Assembly: GCA_944358535.1 (NCBI GenBank) | Contig: CALVRH010000008.1 | Span: 1 to 44,684, forward strand | DNA from: an uncultured Bacilli bacterium | GTDB taxonomy: Bacteria > Bacillota_I > Bacilli_A > RF39 > UBA660 | Direction of reading: 5' to 3' | Length of the DNA: 44,684 nt | In this document: positions 27,740 to 36,180 of the stretch, one piece after another | Numbering within the stretch: position 1 is the stretch's first letter | How the letters are laid out: every line of letters begins with the position of its first letter | Notes under the pieces: model-generated | What the model saw: only the letters and a program-made list of their open reading frames with translations | What the model was told of the DNA's origin: nothing | The model's database searches: none | Program-made: the position numbers and the translations under genes

Positions 27740-27965
27740 TCCCTCCTATAATAAAAAAACTCCATATATAAATTACTTTATATAAGGAGTGCATGACACG
27801 GTACCATCCTAAATTTTACTTAATTAAAGATAACGGTTCACACCGGGAATCTCTTTCGAGTCCTATTCATAAGTAGTAATGTTTAAAACCCGTATTATCT
27901 TACACCAACCGATAACTCTCTTCAAACAAGTATTTTAAACACCATGTCTTAATCAAAATATTTAA
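27740..27965 (-). promoter_or_regulatory. T-box riboswitch controlling thrS
   Basis: The thrS leader carries a T-box core (AGGATGGTACCGTG on the minus strand, 27797-27810). It is followed by a terminator hairpin (27752-27790, GGAGT arms then a T-run) that would form when tRNA-Thr is charged. Upstream the Stem I features AGAGAG and GGTTGGTG are visible. Uncharged tRNA binding should favour the antiterminator. I see ACT triplets in the expected specifier region but could not fold the stem confidently enough to fix the specifier codon. Confidence 0.92.
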
Positions 27966-28023: not shown

Positions 28024-28821
28024 TTATCTAATTCTTAACTTTTTTATCATTTTTTTCGCATTTGAATATAAAATTTTATCTCTTTGTTCATCAGATAAAT
28101 CAATATTTTGCAAAATTAGTGTTTGTTCTTCTACTGGTGTAATATCATTAGAAAAATATGGATAATCACTTCCAAAAAATATTCTATCTTCTCCATACCT
28201 ATCTACTGCATATTTAATCAAACCTTTATTGCTAATTGACGAAATATCAGTATAAATTCTATCATCTTTAGATCCGAAATCAATCATATCTTTAGTAAAT
28301 TGTTCATCACATTGTCCATTTCTACCTAAATGAGCAACAATAATATTCATATTTGGATACTCACTTCTTAAAGTCTCAATATATTGCTTTGAAATTGTAG
28401 ATAAGGAATGTAAAATCAAAAAGCCCTGATTATCAGACAAATATTGATAACCTAAACTTCTATCTTTATAATCATTATAATCATGTACTAAAAAATGCTC
28501 TTTTAAAATATTATATTTCATAATTCTAAAATTATTATCAAAATCTTTATCATCAGGTACAAGTAAAACTGGCACAGCACGTAAATTATCATTAAAATAA
28601 TTAATTATATCGTTGTTTGCTTCATTAATATCAGTTTCTTTAAAAACCATTGGCATTACAATAAAAGAATCTAAATTTTTAACATAATCATCAAAAGAAC
28701 TCAAAGCAGTAACATTTACTGAATTATAAAGTTTATAGACATTTCTATATAAAGAGTTCTGAACTATATTTTCACAACTTTTTTGATTACCAAAATGAAT
28801 ATGGGTATCAATTATTCTCAT
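28024..28821 (-). CDS. Amidohydrolase (TIM-barrel metallohydrolase) of the RiPP cluster
   Basis: The 265-residue protein is an amidohydrolase-2-type metal-dependent hydrolase: IIDTHIHFG at the start (HxH metal ligands), IIVAHLGRNG (metal-binding His), IYTDISSIS, and RIFFGSDYPYFSNDITP with the catalytic Asp. Such enzymes cleave C-N or C-C bonds; the substrate here is unknown. It is the last gene of the precursor/RRE/radical SAM operon and follows the third radical SAM gene by 26 bases. It may therefore act on the modified peptide or on a fragment of it. GAGG lies 9 bases before the ATG at 28821; the TTG at 28824 is rejected. Confidence 0.85.
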   Translation of the reverse strand: MRIIDTHIHFGNQKSCENIVQNSLYRNVYKLYNSVNVTALSSFDDYVKNLDSFIVMPMVFKETDINEANNDIINYFNDNLRAVPVLLVPDDKDFDNNFRIMKYNILKEHFLVHDYNDYKDRSLGYQYLSDNQGFLILHSLSTISKQYIETLRSEYPNMNIIVAHLGRNGQCDEQFTKDMIDFGSKDDRIYTDISSISNKGLIKYAVDRYGEDRIFFGSDYPYFSNDITPVEEQTLILQNIDLSDEQRDKILYSNAKKMIKKLRIR

Positions 28822-28847
28822 CAAATATCACCTCTTATTACTAAAAA

Positions 28848-29816
28848 CTAATCATTTACACATGGCTCTTTCAAAGGGCACAAACTGTCTTTGCTAAACA
28901 TACCAGAAAACGCTCTACAGCCTCCACAAGAAAATTTATATTTACACGAACCACACTCTTGAATTTCTCTATTTCTTAATTTCTTTAAAATAGAACTACT
29001 ATTCCAAATTGTCATTAAACTAGTCTCCATCAAGTTTCCAACTTTTTCTCTTAAAAATATACATGGATAAACATCACCATCGCTAGATATACCCACGTTA
29101 TTTATACCAGCTCCACATCCCAAATAATTATTAACATCACGATTTAACAAAACATTTAAAATAGGATCATCAATTGCTACTACCAAATCATCAGTACTCA
29201 ATTTGGATAATTTTTTTATTTTAGTATAATATTTTTCTTTATCTGGAAGAACGTAATCATTTTCTTTAGCTTTGCCATAAGGAACAACACGTCTATAAAA
29301 CACTTTATCAACTTTTAATTTTTTTGCCTCATAAAAGTTCCACTCTAAAGTATCTAAATTTTCAGCAGTAATTGTCACATTCATTTGAGTAAACATACCA
29401 TCTTCTTTAGCCAAAGTTAAAGCTCTTATAGCCCTATCATAGGAACCTTTTACTCCTCTAAATTTCTCATGAACTTCTTTCGGACCATCCAATGAAACCT
29501 GAACAAATTTTACTCCAGATTCAACAATATCATTTCTAAACTTTTCATAAAACCAACCATTTGTAGAAATACCAACATATATATTGTTAGATGTTAATTT
29601 TTTTATAATATTGAAAACCCTACTATTTAACAAAGGTTCTCCACCAGAAATGTTTACTGCCAAAACTTTTGCTTTAATTATTTCTGAAACAATTCGATTT
29701 TCAATCTCTTCATTATCTTCTTCATGAATACAATAAGCTCGACAATGTGGACATAAAAAGTTGCAATTATTAGTAACCTCCCAAACAACAGAAACAGGTG
29801 CCTTAAGATTCAACAT
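28848..29816 (-). CDS. Radical SAM/SPASM enzyme 3 of the RiPP cluster
   Basis: The 322-residue enzyme has the radical SAM motif CNFLCPHC (CX3CX2C) near residue 16, NISGGEPLL (GGE motif), VSLDGPKEVHEKFRG, and a SPASM region: CGAGINNVGISSDGDVYPC then CGSCKYKFSCGGCRAF and a final Cys. It should bind one SAM-cleaving and at least one auxiliary iron-sulfur cluster. SPASM enzymes typically modify peptides. A long frame opens at 29885, but GGAG 7 bases before the ATG at 29816 sets the start. It overlaps the end of the second radical SAM gene by 14 bases. The probable substrate is the 30-residue precursor at 32678. Confidence 0.93.
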   Translation of the reverse strand: MLNLKAPVSVVWEVTNNCNFLCPHCRAYCIHEEDNEEIENRIVSEIIKAKVLAVNISGGEPLLNSRVFNIIKKLTSNNIYVGISTNGWFYEKFRNDIVESGVKFVQVSLDGPKEVHEKFRGVKGSYDRAIRALTLAKEDGMFTQMNVTITAENLDTLEWNFYEAKKLKVDKVFYRRVVPYGKAKENDYVLPDKEKYYTKIKKLSKLSTDDLVVAIDDPILNVLLNRDVNNYLGCGAGINNVGISSDGDVYPCIFLREKVGNLMETSLMTIWNSSSILKKLRNREIQECGSCKYKFSCGGCRAFSGMFSKDSLCPLKEPCVND

Positions 29817-30810
29817 AATAACACTCCGAATCTTCTCCCAAATAATCACCAGACAACATATAAGCTGCAGCTCGACAACCACCACAAATCATTTTATATT
29901 TACACGAACCACACTTTCCTTTCAAAGCTCTTTTCTTTAATAAATTAATCGGTTCAGAATCCAATATTTCAGATAAATCTTGTTTTAAAATATTTCCACA
30001 TGAAATGTATAATAATGAACAAGGAGATACAGTACCATCATTTCTAACACATATTCCATTTACACCAGCAGAACATCCTGCACAATCTAATTTATATTTA
30101 TCCATAATCTTTTTTACCAAATCTTTTTGATAAACATTCTTTAATGGAAAATCAGCCACAATCTGTACTTTATCTTTATATTCAACTTGTAATTTTTGTA
30201 AATTTTCAAACATTTTTTTTAGCCCAGCTGTACCCAAATTACATATACCAGCCATTTCATTATTAGGAATAAATCTTTTAAACCCTAATATTTCAACATC
30301 AATTTTATTAACATCAATAATTTGATGAACAAATTCTTCCATCTGATCAACATTTAAACTAGATACTAAACTGCTTATATGCAATTTAATTTTTGAATTA
30401 TACTTATTAATTAATTTAAGTTTTTCAATAACTCTGTCATAGGTGCCAACACCTCTCACTTTATCATGTTCTTCTTTGATGCCATCTAAACTCACTTGAA
30501 TATAATTAGTTCCAGCATCAATTAAATCTTTAAGCAATTCTTCAGTTAACAACAACGAATTAGTATTTATTATTGTGATAGGTGCTAATTTTTTAAATTT
30601 TTTCACTATATCTAAAATATCTTTTCTTACTAATGGTTCCCCACCACTTATAAAGACTGCACGGGGTTTAAAAGGTTTACATTTTTCTATAATTGTATCT
30701 ATCTCACCCATACTCAATTCATGATTAATAGCATTTGTTCTACAATGCTTACATTTCAAATTACATTTTGTTGTTATATCGACAGTAATATTCATGTTTT
30801 CATATTTCAT
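29803..30810 (-). CDS. Radical SAM/SPASM enzyme 2 of the RiPP cluster
   Basis: The 335-residue enzyme starts near ITVDITTKCNLKCKHCR (CX3CX2C) and has FISGGEPLVRKD and VSLDGIKEEHDKVRG. A SPASM region has CAGCSAGVNGICVRNDGTVSPC, CGSCKYKMICGGCRAA and a late Cys (EDSECYY). It is closely similar in plan to the third enzyme but clearly diverged. Its ATG overlaps the TGA of the small RRE gene (ATGA), and GGTGATG precedes it. It probably catalyses one step of maturing the Cys-rich precursor; thioether or other C-S/C-C bonds are typical for SPASM enzymes. Confidence 0.93.
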   Translation of the reverse strand: MKYENMNITVDITTKCNLKCKHCRTNAINHELSMGEIDTIIEKCKPFKPRAVFISGGEPLVRKDILDIVKKFKKLAPITIINTNSLLLTEELLKDLIDAGTNYIQVSLDGIKEEHDKVRGVGTYDRVIEKLKLINKYNSKIKLHISSLVSSLNVDQMEEFVHQIIDVNKIDVEILGFKRFIPNNEMAGICNLGTAGLKKMFENLQKLQVEYKDKVQIVADFPLKNVYQKDLVKKIMDKYKLDCAGCSAGVNGICVRNDGTVSPCSLLYISCGNILKQDLSEILDSEPINLLKKRALKGKCGSCKYKMICGGCRAAAYMLSGDYLGEDSECYYVES

Positions 30811-31040
30811 TTTTCATCACCACTTTTAATCAAAATATTCTTATTAACTAAATAATCAACATATGGTTTAGATAACATTACATCAGTACTATTAGTAGAC
30901 AATAAATCTTCTATATATTGTTTAACTTTTCCAATAACAAATATCATTTCAGCTGTCCTAACATTATATATTAACAATCTATTTTCATCTTCGTTTCTAA
31001 ACCTATAATCCTTTACATTGAGGCTCAACTTTTCCAACAC
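30807..31040 (-). CDS. PqqD-like RiPP recognition element protein
   Basis: The 77-residue protein has the pattern of a stand-alone PqqD-type RRE. It has three beta strands (YRFRNEDENRLLIYN, EMIFVIG) and then helices ending in VDYLVNKNILI, like the dv..fl..L...Gll ending of PqqD. RREs bind the leader of the precursor peptide and deliver it to modifying enzymes. The start is a GTG with AAGG 9 bases upstream. It overlaps the first radical SAM gene by 16 bases and the second by 4. The assignment rests on pattern and context, not on a profile search. Confidence 0.7.
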   Translation of the reverse strand: MLEKLSLNVKDYRFRNEDENRLLIYNVRTAEMIFVIGKVKQYIEDLLSTNSTDVMLSKPYVDYLVNKNILIKSGDEK

Positions 31041-32029
31041 AAATCATCACCTTCCAAATAATCACCATATTTTATATATGCATTCGCTCTACAGCCACCA
31101 CAATATGGCAAATGTTCACACCTACCACAATTCCCTTTAATCTTATTTTTATTTCTAAAATCAGAAAATATTAATGAATGTTTCCAAACATCTTTAATAT
31201 CATCAACTTTAAAATTACCACCAATAATAGGTATTTGACAGCACGGAGATACATCACCGTTCGCAAAAATCATCATTTCAGTTATAGCTGCTGGACAAGA
31301 TGCAAAACATGTATGATTTTTACTCAATTCTGGAAGTAAAATGGCATAAGGAATATCCAACCTAGCATCAATATCATACTTTTGAACAATTTCATTTATA
31401 CTTAATAAAAATCTTTTTACTTGAAATGGAGATAAAGACTGATCTTTAATATTAACCCCTCTACCAGCCGGCGATAACAAAGGTAAAAACCATTTTTTTA
31501 CATTCAATTTTTTCAACAGTTTAGCAATTTCTTCTAACTCATCGACATTAAGTTTAGATACGCAAGTAACAACAGCAACATCAATTCCATTAGCAACTAA
31601 TAATTTAATATTACTAATCGTTCTATCAAAAATATTAGTACCGTTTCTTAAAAAATCGTGGGTTTCTTTATTACTACCATCCAAACTAATTCTTACCAAT
31701 TCAAATTTATAAAATTGTTCTTCAACCATTCTTGGAGTTAACAATAAACTATTAGTAGTTACACTTACGAAAATGCCTTTAGAAATAGCATAATCAACTA
31801 TATCAAAAAAATCTTGTCTAATTAAAGGTTCTCCGCCAGAAAACATAATTTTTTGAACATTCTCATTAGATAACAAATCTATTACGTTACAACACTCTTC
31901 TAATGTTAATTCATCTTTTAATTTTTTACCACTATTCATATTACAATGTTTACAATTTAAATTACATTGATTTGTAATAGCCCACCCAACAGAATAAGGG
32001 TAATATGATACATTAATTTCTTCTTTCAT
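31025..32029 (-). CDS. Radical SAM/SPASM enzyme 1 of the RiPP cluster
   Basis: The 334-residue enzyme has WAITNQCNLNCKHCNMN (CX3CX2C), MFSGGEPLIRQD, VRISLDGSNKETHDFLRNG, and a SPASM region with CFASCPAAITEMMIFANGDV and SPCC, then CGRCEHLPYCGGCRAN and a final Cys (DDLCWKS). It is the most diverged of the three in the SPASM part (paired CC). Two starts are possible: ATG at 32029 and TTG at 32035, the latter closer to GGAG. I give the ATG. It overlaps the end of the 203-residue RRE-fusion gene. Its partner is likely that RRE protein and the adjacent precursor. Confidence 0.93.
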   Translation of the reverse strand: MKEEINVSYYPYSVGWAITNQCNLNCKHCNMNSGKKLKDELTLEECCNVIDLLSNENVQKIMFSGGEPLIRQDFFDIVDYAISKGIFVSVTTNSLLLTPRMVEEQFYKFELVRISLDGSNKETHDFLRNGTNIFDRTISNIKLLVANGIDVAVVTCVSKLNVDELEEIAKLLKKLNVKKWFLPLLSPAGRGVNIKDQSLSPFQVKRFLLSINEIVQKYDIDARLDIPYAILLPELSKNHTCFASCPAAITEMMIFANGDVSPCCQIPIIGGNFKVDDIKDVWKHSLIFSDFRNKNKIKGNCGRCEHLPYCGGCRANAYIKYGDYLEGDDLCWKS

Positions 32030-32624
32030 AAGCAATTAAGACTCCTTTACTAATTAAAAGATTCAAACGTTTTATACATTTATCATCAACAGTCTTATCA
32101 TTGGTCAACAAATCAGATAAAAAGATTCCTTTTAGAATTTTTTTCCATAACTCACATAATGCCCCACCAACAAAAAATAATGTTCCTTTATAATAAATTG
32201 AATATTCTCCATCTTCTTCTTCACGACTAACAACTAAAGGATTTCTCTCAAAAAAAATATTTTTATTTACTAGAGTCAATATTTCTTTTAACTCTACATT
32301 TTTTACATCTTTATAATTATCAAGCAAATAACTTTTCTTACTTATAATTACATTATCTATCTTATAAAAATCAGAAAAATTGAAATTAAAATAATATTGT
32401 TTTTTTTGTATAATTTTTCCTTGTTGAATAAATTGAATTACTAGCTTATATTTTTTCCCATCTAAATCATTATCATAAAGCAATTTAATCTTTTCATTTT
32501 CCAAATATATAACATCATTAAATAAAACTTCACTTCCCTGATTAACAGTAACTAATTTTATATTCAACAGTACTACTCTATTAAAATTTATTGTTAAATT
32601 AGACAAATCTATATTTATAAACAT
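32013..32624 (-). CDS. Protein with C-terminal PqqD-like RRE domain
   Basis: The 203-residue protein has an N-terminal ~115 residues I do not recognise (beta-rich, many Asn/Lys) and a C-terminal part (about 125-203). There NPLVVSREEEDGEYSIYYKG, TLFFVGGALCELWKKILKG and CIKRLNLLISKGVLIAYE follow the PqqD/RRE plan. It probably captures the precursor leader for the first radical SAM enzyme. GAGGAG lies 7 bases before the ATG. It follows the precursor gene by 53 bases across a hairpin. No catalytic residues are evident. Confidence 0.68.
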   Translation of the reverse strand: MFINIDLSNLTINFNRVVLLNIKLVTVNQGSEVLFNDVIYLENEKIKLLYDNDLDGKKYKLVIQFIQQGKIIQKKQYYFNFNFSDFYKIDNVIISKKSYLLDNYKDVKNVELKEILTLVNKNIFFERNPLVVSREEEDGEYSIYYKGTLFFVGGALCELWKKILKGIFLSDLLTNDKTVDDKCIKRLNLLISKGVLIAYERRN

Positions 32625-32660
32625 TATTAAACTCCTCTCAATTTTTCTAATTAATTTTCT

Positions 32661-32680
32661 TAAAGGAAAGAATTCCTTTA
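32661..32680 (-). terminator. Hairpin between the precursor gene and the enzyme genes
   Basis: On the minus strand TAAAGGAA and TTCCTTTA form a perfect 8-bp stem with a TTCT loop, starting at the precursor's stop codon. No long T-run follows. It could be a partial terminator or an RNA stability element that keeps peptide output above enzyme output, as is common in RiPP operons. Confidence 0.6.
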
Positions 32681-32770
32681 GTTAACATCACAAGTTCCAC
32701 AATTAATTGCACAAATTTCTTTTAATTCTTGTTCTTCTTGTGCTTTAACCTTTTCAGCATTATTTTGCAT
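32678..32770 (-). CDS. Cys-rich RiPP precursor peptide (30 residues)
   Basis: A short frame with AAGGAGG 8 bases before its ATG encodes 30 residues. A charged, helical leader begins MQNNAEKVKAQEEQELK, and the peptide ends EICAINCGTCDVN. Three Cys lie in the last 11 residues with spacing CX3CX2C. It sits first in the operon, directly before RRE and radical SAM genes, the classic place of a precursor. There is no double-Gly leader cleavage site. The three Cys, Asn and Thr residues offer sites for thioether crosslinks or cluster binding. No clear promoter lies in the 64 bases before it; it may be read from the rel promoter. Confidence 0.82.
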   Translation of the reverse strand: MQNNAEKVKAQEEQELKEICAINCGTCDVN

Positions 32771-32834
32771 TTGTTTTCCCTCCTTTTTATTTATTTAGTT
32801 TTTTGACAATGAGATCCCTATAAACTCAAAAATA

Positions 32835-34474: not shown

Positions 34475-34550
34475 TGGCAGGGGAAGCAAGACTTGAACTC
34501 ACGACATTCGGTTTTGGAGACCGACGTTCTACCAACTGAACTATTCCCCT
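34475..34550 (-). tRNA. trnW: tRNA-Trp (anticodon CCA)
   Basis: The 76-base minus-strand sequence folds as a cloverleaf. The acceptor arms are AGGGGAA and TTCCCCT with an encoded CCA end. The D-arm region is AGTTCAGTTGGTAGAAC. The anticodon stem TCGGT/ACCGA encloses the loop CTCCAAA (anticodon CCA), and the T-arm contains GTTCAAG. A CCA anticodon reading UGG agrees with use of TGA as stop in this genome. Confidence 0.97.
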
Positions 34551-34659: not shown

Positions 34660-35088
34660 ATGTCTGTAATTAGAACAACTGATACTGAAAGAGATCTACT
34701 TGCAAGATTAATGCGAGCTGAAGCTGTTGGTGAAGGTGACTTAGGCATGCTTATGGTTGGTAATGTAGTTATCAATAGAGCCCTAGCCAACTGTCTAACT
34801 TTCAAAAACATAGATACAATAAGTGAAGTTATCTACCAAAATCCAGGAGGTTTTTCTGGAGTTGATAGTCCACTATTTTTTAGTAACCCCACAACGGTTG
34901 AAAGAAACCTGGCCAATAGAGTAATAAAAGGAGAATACTACCACCCAGCCACTCATGCTTTATGGTTCTACGCACCAAAAACTGGAGAATCTTGTAAAAC
35001 TACATGGTGGGATCAATATAATGTTGGTAGATATAAAAACCATTGCTTCTATGCCCCATCTCCTGGAGAATGTCCAGAAATACGATAA
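34660..35088 (+). CDS. SleB/CwlJ-like cell wall hydrolase
   Basis: The 142-residue protein is a Hydrolase_2 domain. It has LLARLMRAEAVGEGDLGMLM with the catalytic Glu in the AEAxGE motif, VGNVVINRALANC, ISEVIYQNPGGFSGV and NPTTVERNLANRVIKG. Family members such as CwlJ and SleB degrade cortex peptidoglycan during spore germination; others cleave vegetative wall. No signal peptide is visible, as in CwlJ. GGTGAT precedes the ATG. It is a single plus-strand gene between tRNA-Trp and the convergent HtrA gene. Presence alone does not prove sporulation. Confidence 0.9.
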   Translation: MSVIRTTDTERDLLARLMRAEAVGEGDLGMLMVGNVVINRALANCLTFKNIDTISEVIYQNPGGFSGVDSPLFFSNPTTVERNLANRVIKGEYYHPATHALWFYAPKTGESCKTTWWDQYNVGRYKNHCFYAPSPGECPEIR

Positions 35089-35094
35089 AAGACT

Positions 35095-36180
35095 CTAATT
35101 AGAGTCTCCTATTTGCTGAGTTAACTCAAGTGTTAACTCTTTTTCATTTCCATTTCTAACAATAGTTAATTTAACCGTGTCACCAATATTGTGTTTATAT
35201 AAAAGATACTTCAAATGTGCTGAATTCTTAATCTTAGTACCATCAAGCTCTATAATAACATCATTTCTCTGTAACCCAGCCTTTTCAGCATCTGAGCCAC
35301 TTTCAACAGAATCAACAACAACACCAGAATCAACATTATCATCAATACGTAAATCACTATATCCAAGTAATGGCAAACTATCTAAATCATAAAGAGATAC
35401 ACCAATAACCGGTCTTGCAATAGCCTCACCATTTTCTAATTTATCTATTTGTGACATTGCAACCTCAATTGGAATTGCAAATCCCATACCTTCAACAGAA
35501 CTTTCAACTAATTTTACTGAATTAATACCAATAACCTCGCCATTTATATTTACAAGTGGACCACCACTATTACCAGGATTAATAGATGCATCTATTTGAA
35601 TAGCCTCCATCATATATGAAGAGCCATTATTTGTCACTGTAATTTCTCTATTTTCACCAGAAATTATTCCTTTGGTAACCGTACCAGCATAATCCGTACT
35701 AACTGGTGTACCAACCGTAAATACAGTATCACCTATTTTAGCCTCTGTACTGTCGCCAATTTCAGCAACCTGTAATACTTTATCTCCATCAATTCTTAAA
35801 ACTGCAATATCCATATAAGCATCAGTTCCTAAAACCTCTGCATCAACTTCCTCACCAGAACTTAAAGTAAGCTTAACTTCTGTAGCGTTTTCAACAACAT
35901 GATTATTTGTAAGAACATAACCATACTTATTATCCTTTTTATAAACAAATCCAGAGCCATAACCTGTAAGACGACCATTTTGATAATTACTTACAACTGC
36001 CACTGAATCATAAACTTTATCAATAGATTCATTAATTGAATCATTTGAAGTAATTGTTACATTTTTCTTAACTAAACTATCACTATTATTAGAATCATTA
36101 TTCACAAAATATAAAGTTCCAGTAACTCCAAGCGCTAAAACAATTAAAATAATAACAACATTCACTATTCGTTCTCGCAT
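35095..36180 (-). CDS. HtrA-like serine protease with PDZ domain
   Basis: The 361-residue protein is a trypsin-like envelope quality-control protease. A membrane anchor lies at about 7-26. The protease domain shows the triad: His in VLTNNHVVENA, Asp in DAYMDIAVLRI, and Ser in INPGNSGGPLVN. One PDZ domain follows (about 260-350, with SDAEKAGLQRNDVIIELDG). GGAGG lies 6 bases before the ATG. It is transcribed with the Abi-type gene upstream (10 bases apart), though co-regulation is only suggested by spacing. Confidence 0.95.
   Translation of the reverse strand: MRERIVNVVIILIVLALGVTGTLYFVNNDSNNSDSLVKKNVTITSNDSINESIDKVYDSVAVVSNYQNGRLTGYGSGFVYKKDNKYGYVLTNNHVVENATEVKLTLSSGEEVDAEVLGTDAYMDIAVLRIDGDKVLQVAEIGDSTEAKIGDTVFTVGTPVSTDYAGTVTKGIISGENREITVTNNGSSYMMEAIQIDASINPGNSGGPLVNINGEVIGINSVKLVESSVEGMGFAIPIEVAMSQIDKLENGEAIARPVIGVSLYDLDSLPLLGYSDLRIDDNVDSGVVVDSVESGSDAEKAGLQRNDVIIELDGTKIKNSAHLKYLLYKHNIGDTVKLTIVRNGNEKELTLELTQQIGDSN

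Follow-up and report, generated by a model that had tools for sequence, protein, structure and literature searches.

What does an operon that couples a peptide gene of only 30 codons to three radical S-adenosylmethionine (SAM)/SPASM enzymes and an amidohydrolase produce, and why does it lie next to a second gene for threonyl-tRNA synthetase (ThrRS)? The question is raised by contig CALVRH010000008.1 (assembly GCA_944358535.1), a 44,684-nt stretch of DNA from an uncultured Bacilli bacterium that was analyzed over its whole length and is called the window here. At positions 28024-32770, all on the minus strand, the window carries seven genes in the order precursor peptide, p203, rS1, p77, rS2, rS3 and amidohydrolase, where rS1-rS3 are the radical SAM/SPASM enzymes and p203 and p77 are small proteins discussed below. 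The original prediction, made from the sequence letters, had described this gene set, and every open reading frame (ORF) was found at the coordinates it gave, with the Pfam domains and Cys motifs confirmed. We propose that the operon encodes the pathway of a ribosomally synthesized and post-translationally modified peptide (RiPP) of an undescribed class with a fixed core, that the product inhibits ThrRS, and that the linked ThrRS is an insensitive copy conferring self-immunity; taken as a whole, we consider the case for this proposal to be evenly poised.

The precursor peptide, MQNNAEKVKAQEEQELKEICAINCGTCDVN, is 100% identical in a sister species (G004; locus L009, CALVIE010000025.1), in which all seven genes are present in order. 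The two peptide genes differ at 3 of 93 nt, all synonymous and all at third codon positions, and the SPASM enzymes of the two species differ by 6-8% of their residues. Since the non-coding flanks are as conserved between these genomes as the peptide gene itself, the precursor was sought in more distant genomes. In another genus (G753), MEKKEEQLEEIVSVSCGTCDVN was found directly before homologues of p203 and rS1, where the contig ends; its start was chosen after a GGAGGGAGGTG ribosome-binding site, and the longer frame would add six residues. When 386 family genomes were scanned for sequences encoding CGTCD-x-N-stop, a third genus (G1022) came up, in which MEEKELEEVVSVSCGTCDIN precedes p203, rS1, p77, rS2, rS3 and the amidohydrolase (identities in the table). 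The precursors of G753 and G1022 have 20 and 22 residues, and the part fixed across the three genera is limited to [SN]CGTCD[VI]N, that is, the last 7-8 residues with two Cys, which are conserved above every protein of the system. The 11-residue, three-Cys core that had been predicted therefore shrinks, with CGTC kept: in the relatives, Val replaces the first Cys of the window peptide, and this position lies outside the conserved core. Upstream of the core, the leader is acidic and ends in ...EEQELKEI-. Because the peptide is identical in G004 and two other genera encode its C-terminal end ahead of the same genes, the comparison of sequences identifies the precursor as a true gene and not a chance ORF, and its make-up, a short gene with a leader and a conserved core beside modifying enzymes, is that of a RiPP precursor. 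Conservation of the peptide frame in homologous loci was a test on which the original prediction had staked the RiPP reading; the frame is conserved, and the reading stands. One-mismatch core hits in three further genomes (G664, G942 and G715), with no operon genes nearby, were set aside as chance, as were two viral matches to the core pattern (L106 1131-1154 and L107 3444-3467), which lie antisense in groEL and endolysin genes.

The modifying enzymes are intact and belong to no named class. Radical_SAM (PF04055) and SPASM (PF13186) score above cut-off in rS1, rS2 and rS3, and Amidohydro_2 is found in the last protein; Pfam gave no meaningful hit for p203, p77 or the peptide. Every CX3CX2C and SPASM Cys of rS1-rS3 is kept in the G1022 orthologues, as are the putative metal ligands of the amidohydrolase (HxH, H, H, D). 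The three SPASM enzymes are ~30% identical to one another within the genome but 57-69% identical to their counterparts across genera, which makes them three old, separately conserved enzymes with, presumably, three separate tasks. Many SPASM models of NCBIfam match them, and no named class reaches its curated cut-off: the three enzymes score 121, 80 and 142 bits against MftC (TIGR03962, cut-off 265), 89, 95 and 101 bits against PqqE (TIGR02109, cut-off 381), and 160, 100 and 159 bits against GeoRSP (TIGR04303, cut-off 400), the best ScmE score is 122 bits (cut-off 400), and the sactipeptide and ranthipeptide maturase models StsB, AlbA, PapB and SkfB stay far under theirs. The MftC model is among the matches of all three enzymes, and GeoRSP_rSAM is the top model for rS3. 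A search with rS2 in 392 genomes of the phylum at E 1e-35 gave no further match, and a scan of viral contigs with rS1 gave none; rS1 matches of 30-34% identity in other genomes and 27-32% on plasmids were taken as ordinary SPASM proteins.

For the two proteins that had been predicted to be PqqD-like RiPP recognition elements (RREs), the outcome is divided: the assignment of p77 is based on its modeled fold and that of p203 on a pattern only, and both are without a match to Pfam PqqD or to an NCBIfam RRE model. The AlphaFold model of p77 (predicted local distance difference test score, pLDDT, 77) is closest to RREs, namely leader-bound TbiB1 (Z 6.9), lasso B1 (6.2) and TigE (5.8), followed by cyanobactin heterocyclases (4.9), with oxygenase winged-helix domains interspersed (6.4); the top Z of 6.9 lies under the safe level of the tool, and the model is supportive, without being proof, of an RRE-like p77. 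The C-terminus of p203 has a strand-strand-helix pattern that is RRE-like by eye and a weak profile match to p77, and its AlphaFold model was too poor for use. Profile alignment (hhalign) of MftB with the RRE-like proteins gave no signal, which is uninformative for a single MftB sequence. Likewise, a search for p203 in 395 Bacilli genomes returned the window alone, which says little because p203 evolves too fast. With a conserved precursor, an RRE-like partner, three intact SPASM enzymes and scores under the NCBIfam cut-offs, the predicted undescribed RiPP-type operon is borne out: its precursor/SPASM logic is well supported, and the operon is compact, rare and of no named class.

The neighborhood of the operon suggests what its product acts on. 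The original prediction had missed a T-box-controlled thrS that lies just beyond the amidohydrolase (thrS2, the second ThrRS gene of the genome). A thrS flanks the operon in all three genera that have it, in differing arrangements. In the window and in G004, thrS2 is directly downstream of the operon. In G753, a thrS (L076 93-1847) stands directly 5' of the precursor. The amidohydrolase of G1022 is followed by a pair of thrS genes: a divergent thrSx (53% identity; L108 5921-7657), which is in the same gene run as the biosynthetic genes, and, beyond an intervening T-box, a copy that shares 75% identity with thrS2. Taking ~1,100 genes per genome and assuming independence, we estimate the probability that thrS stands beside the operon by chance in two further genera at ~1e-5. 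A functional link between the operon and ThrRS is likely, and the recurrence of an unusual ThrRS beside the operon in three genera suggests a peptide natural product aimed at this enzyme.

The linked ThrRSs differ from the housekeeping enzymes as follows. First, they carry the signatures HRHEASGALNGLFRVRxFTQDDAH, GDGAFYGP and QCGTIQLD, where the housekeeping enzymes of both genera have FRYEASGAVCGLERVR..QNDAH, GEAAFYGP and LSTCQLD. Second, the split between linked and housekeeping ThrRSs is strongly supported in a tree, in which the G753 enzyme and G1022 thrSx form long branches of unsure exact placement; the G753 enzyme is just 38-42% identical to the ThrRSs of its genus-mates. Third, the editing motifs HxxxH and DxCxxxH are missing from these two divergent enzymes, as is the tRNA_SAD domain; both enzymes keep the zinc Cys/His, the anticodon domain and the class II core, so they should charge tRNA-Thr but not proofread. 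In the window and G004, thrS2 encodes an ordinary, editing-competent type under a T-box. The housekeeping copy, which lies on contig C27 of the window genome, also behind a T-box, is present in G004 and G030 as well. As with ObaO, the second ThrRS of obafluorin producers, an extra copy is thus found in the producer genome (two thrS in the window genome and in G004, two adjacent ones in G1022), and it is encoded at the biosynthetic locus, adjacent to it in three genera.

Two further genomes of the window genus show how the operon and thrS2 travel. In G030, the interval between relA and thrS2 holds a deletion scar (L077 6470-6620), also overlooked by the original prediction, that consists of a 36-nt leader element, a decayed precursor start (AAAAAGCGGGAAAACTAATTCAAAATAACG versus AAAAAGGAGGGAAAACAAATGCAAAATAATG) and, directly after this remnant, the last amidohydrolase codons with their 3' flank, the T-box and an intact thrS2. 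The seven genes were therefore lost together and thrS2 was retained, which is what a resistance function, or the usefulness of a second thrS, would lead one to expect. In G004, the operon and thrS2 again adjoin each other, at another site with other neighboring genes, which indicates that they moved together.

In the pathway we envisage, the RRE-like proteins would hold the acidic leader of the 20-30-residue precursor and present it to the three SPASM enzymes, which would modify the C-terminal CGTCD[VI]N in turn, probably by forming thioether or C-C bonds at the two Cys, by oxidizing the C-terminal V/I-N, or both. The core would then be freed by a peptidase. The prediction that none is encoded holds for the window, where a host peptidase would act, but not for G1022, whose operon has two added genes (L108 8653-10813): a 485-residue M3 oligoendopeptidase-F-like protein (E 4e-43, below the family cut-off), plausibly the leader peptidase, and a 233-residue beta-rich protein without a Pfam match. 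The amidohydrolase may trim or decarboxylate the released core, and the product would most likely inhibit ThrRS. The linked ThrRS, if insensitive, would stand in for the blocked housekeeping enzyme and protect the producer; in the window, the T-box would turn thrS2 on when tRNA-Thr is uncharged, as inhibition of the housekeeping ThrRS would cause. Both halves have a precedent, since ObaO protects obafluorin producers (PMC11252418) and microcin C is a tiny RiPP aimed at an aminoacyl-tRNA synthetase (PMC7136475). We infer the target, the immunity role and the chemistry, and the full version, a new RiPP class in which three SPASM enzymes turn CGTCD[VI]N into a ThrRS inhibitor and a linked, partly editing-free ThrRS of non-housekeeping type gives immunity, is put forward tentatively, at somewhat less than an even chance.

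Several observations weigh against this proposal. The operon has no exporter or uptake gene, and its core is invariant across genera, unlike that of most antimicrobial RiPPs. G753 (88% complete) yielded a single thrS and none of the housekeeping kind, so that replacement instead of duplication may have occurred there. Also, thrS2 occurs without the operon in G026, G031 and the scarred G030; at an identity of at least 90% it is present in 5 of the 44 genomes of the genus, most others having the C27 type only. A T-box-controlled second thrS without any RiPP is found elsewhere, as thrZ of B. subtilis. Finally, the Gly463Ser change of ObaO is absent, all linked copies keeping AFYGPK; G1022 thrSx has Met at the Leu489 position, the second ObaO change, as its only one.

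Three other explanations have to be weighed against a ThrRS-directed RiPP. The one that survives best, though we think it unlikely, is a peptide-derived cofactor like pyrroloquinoline quinone (PQQ) or mycofactocin, in which the three SPASM enzymes and the amidohydrolase would convert the core to a small intracellular cofactor or a redox or metal carrier and the thrS neighbors would be accidental. It would account for a core that is invariant although the leader and the enzymes diverge, for the lack of an exporter, which had been predicted and is confirmed for the operon, and for the MftC matches noted above; the precursor also resembles MftA (MQENAGTENSVAAEELVEETLVEEVFIDGMCGVY) in its size, in the acidic EEV end of the leader and in its short Cys-Gly tail. 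An essential cofactor, however, fits poorly with a very scattered occurrence (two among 44 genomes in the window genus and one each among 16 and 6 in the other two genera, all of the same family) and with the clean loss in G030. No dedicated client oxidoreductase lies beside the operon, and three ThrRS neighborhoods of unusual type are left unexplained. The product may stay in the cell as a cofactor, as originally suggested, but the recurrence of a divergent ThrRS beside the operon makes a ThrRS-directed product more likely.

The linked ThrRS might instead take part in biosynthesis, activating Thr or charging tRNA-Thr for aminoacyl addition to the modified peptide, or charging a core-derived, non-standard amino acid. 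The core contains Thr, thrSx stands in the biosynthetic run of G1022, the G753 thrS immediately precedes the precursor, and both have lost the editing site; peptide ligases that depend on aminoacyl-tRNA do exist, such as the PEARLs (PMC11962472). Nevertheless, the operon has no LanB/PEARL-like or other aminoacyl-tRNA-using enzyme, the anticodon domain is fully kept, and the window and G004 copies are of an ordinary, editing-competent, T-box-controlled type, so that we regard this role as quite improbable. Least probable of all is a sactipeptide or ranthipeptide bacteriocin with Cys thioethers on the core, acting on the envelope of competitors beside a coincidental thrS, for which the two invariant core Cys and the matches to StsB and AlbA would speak, because no enzyme reaches the NCBIfam cut-offs of these classes, the operon has neither an exporter nor an immunity membrane protein, known members have cores far longer than ~7 residues, and three separate SPASM enzymes with an amidohydrolase are foreign to them.

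The features of the locus are listed in the table. The genes overlap at four of six junctions (p203/rS1 by 23 nt, rS1/p77 by 16 nt, p77/rS2 by 4 nt, rS2/rS3 by 14 nt); gaps of 23-26 nt and 53 nt separate rS3 from the amidohydrolase and the peptide gene from p203, and the latter gap carries a hairpin.

Table. Features of the operon and of the linked thrS2 in the window
Feature	Position	Strand	Remarks
36-nt leader element TGAGTTTATAGGGATCTCATTGTCAAAAAACTAAAT, 5' of the precursor	32793..32828	(-)	near-identical in three g1 species and another genus
Precursor peptide MQNNAEKVKAQEEQELKEICAINCGTCDVN	32678..32770	(-)	30 residues; core [SN]CGTCD[VI]N-stop
Hairpin at and just after the precursor stop codon	32661..32680	(-)	z -0.2
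p203, N-terminal beta-rich domain and C-terminal RRE-like part	32013..32624	(-)	203 residues; fast-evolving, 28-30% across genera
rS1, radical SAM/SPASM	31025..32035	(-)	start TTG 32035 or ATG 32029; 57% G1022, 55-56% G753
p77, stand-alone RRE-like protein	30807..31040	(-)	77 residues; 46% identical in G1022
rS2, radical SAM/SPASM	29803..30810	(-)	64% identical in G1022
rS3, radical SAM/SPASM	28848..29816	(-)	start ATG 29816, not the longer GTG; 69% identical in G1022, highest of the set
Amidohydro_2 metal-dependent hydrolase/decarboxylase-type protein	28024..28821	(-)	39% identical in G1022
T-box leader of thrS2	27782..27965	(-)	RF00230, 75 bits (under the gathering threshold of 93), E 1.7e-16
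thrS2, second threonyl-tRNA synthetase of the genome	26001..27734	(-)	shares 62% identity with the C27 housekeeping copy; intact editing site

The 36-nt leader element has copies at L108 14668-14703 in G1022 and at L077 6479-6514 in the G030 scar, and among all fetched loci it is confined to operon loci and this scar. It is near-identical between genera whose coding genes share just 57-69%, and consists of a hairpin with a CAAAAAACUAA tail, reminiscent of small riboswitches (PreQ1-I, for example); candidate roles are those of an RNA switch, an operator or the end of a mobile unit. The PreQ1 riboswitch, considered for the A-rich tail, scored a non-significant 12.5 bits (gathering threshold 39) and is not claimed. 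The hairpin at the precursor stop codon is likely an attenuator giving an excess of precursor mRNA; G753 and G1022 have unrelated hairpins at the same place (z -2.1 and -1.6), a weak indication when taken alone. A promoter-like TTGAAA/TATAAT, read by eye, lies immediately 5' of the thrS2 T-box, and the T-box of the linked thrS is also found in relatives; its position after the amidohydrolase and before thrS rules it out as the control of the operon. Elsewhere in the window, the 5' end of a 16S rRNA gene lies at the contig edge (1-83) and a tRNA-Trp gene near relA (34475-34550). Genes for a cell-wall hydrolase (Hydrolase_2, 34660-35088) and an HtrA-like trypsin/PDZ protease (35095-36180) lie near the operon; they are kept in sister species without it and are probably unrelated to it.

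If the proposal is right, the linked ThrRS reveals the probable target of an orphan peptide pathway from a poorly known uncultured lineage, one aminoacylation assay would test the function, and the 7-residue, genetically encoded scaffold would be easily studied. ThrRS inhibitors are rare, and to our knowledge none of the known ones (borrelidin, obafluorin) is ribosomally made; this would be, as far as we know, the first case of a radical-SAM peptide that targets an aminoacyl-tRNA synthetase. No paper linking threonyl-tRNA synthetase, radical SAM and RiPP was found in a search that lay outside most subscription journals. If the ThrRS link is accidental, a 20-30-residue precursor with three SPASM enzymes is still among the most compact multi-enzyme RiPP systems.

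Among known systems, mycofactocin (mftABCDEF) shares a precursor that is short and acidic and whose C-terminal mini-core has Cys-Gly and a terminal Val-X, a small RRE protein adjacent to a SPASM enzyme, the absence of an exporter and a hydrolase-type release step. It differs in having one SPASM enzyme instead of three, of which the best stays below the MftC cut-off, in MftD, MftE and MftF, which are absent from the operon loci, in a precursor ending in Val-Tyr instead of V/I-Asn, in the thrS linkage of the operon, and in MftB, which is not recognizably similar to p77 by profile (one MftB sequence). The PQQ pathway (pqqABCDE) has a 20-30-residue precursor, PqqD-type chaperone logic and a SPASM enzyme in common with the operon, which lacks PqqB and PqqC, has no Tyr in its precursor and scores far from PqqE. 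GeoRSP and SynChlorMet cassettes also have more than one SPASM enzyme, and GeoRSP_rSAM is the closest model to rS3, but the GeoRSP and ScmE scores fall well short of their cut-offs; no association of these cassettes with thrS is known to us. Obafluorin resembles the present system in that a second ThrRS, ObaO, is encoded with the biosynthetic locus and another elsewhere in the genome, and differs in that its product is a beta-lactone, not a RiPP, and in the Gly463Ser change missing here. Microcin C depends on a ThiF-like adenylating enzyme and on no radical SAM enzyme for its modification, and its immunity is not known to come from a second synthetase. It is a RiPP whose tiny precursor (MRTGNAN) likewise ends in Asn, and its processed form inhibits aspartyl-tRNA synthetase (PMC7136475).

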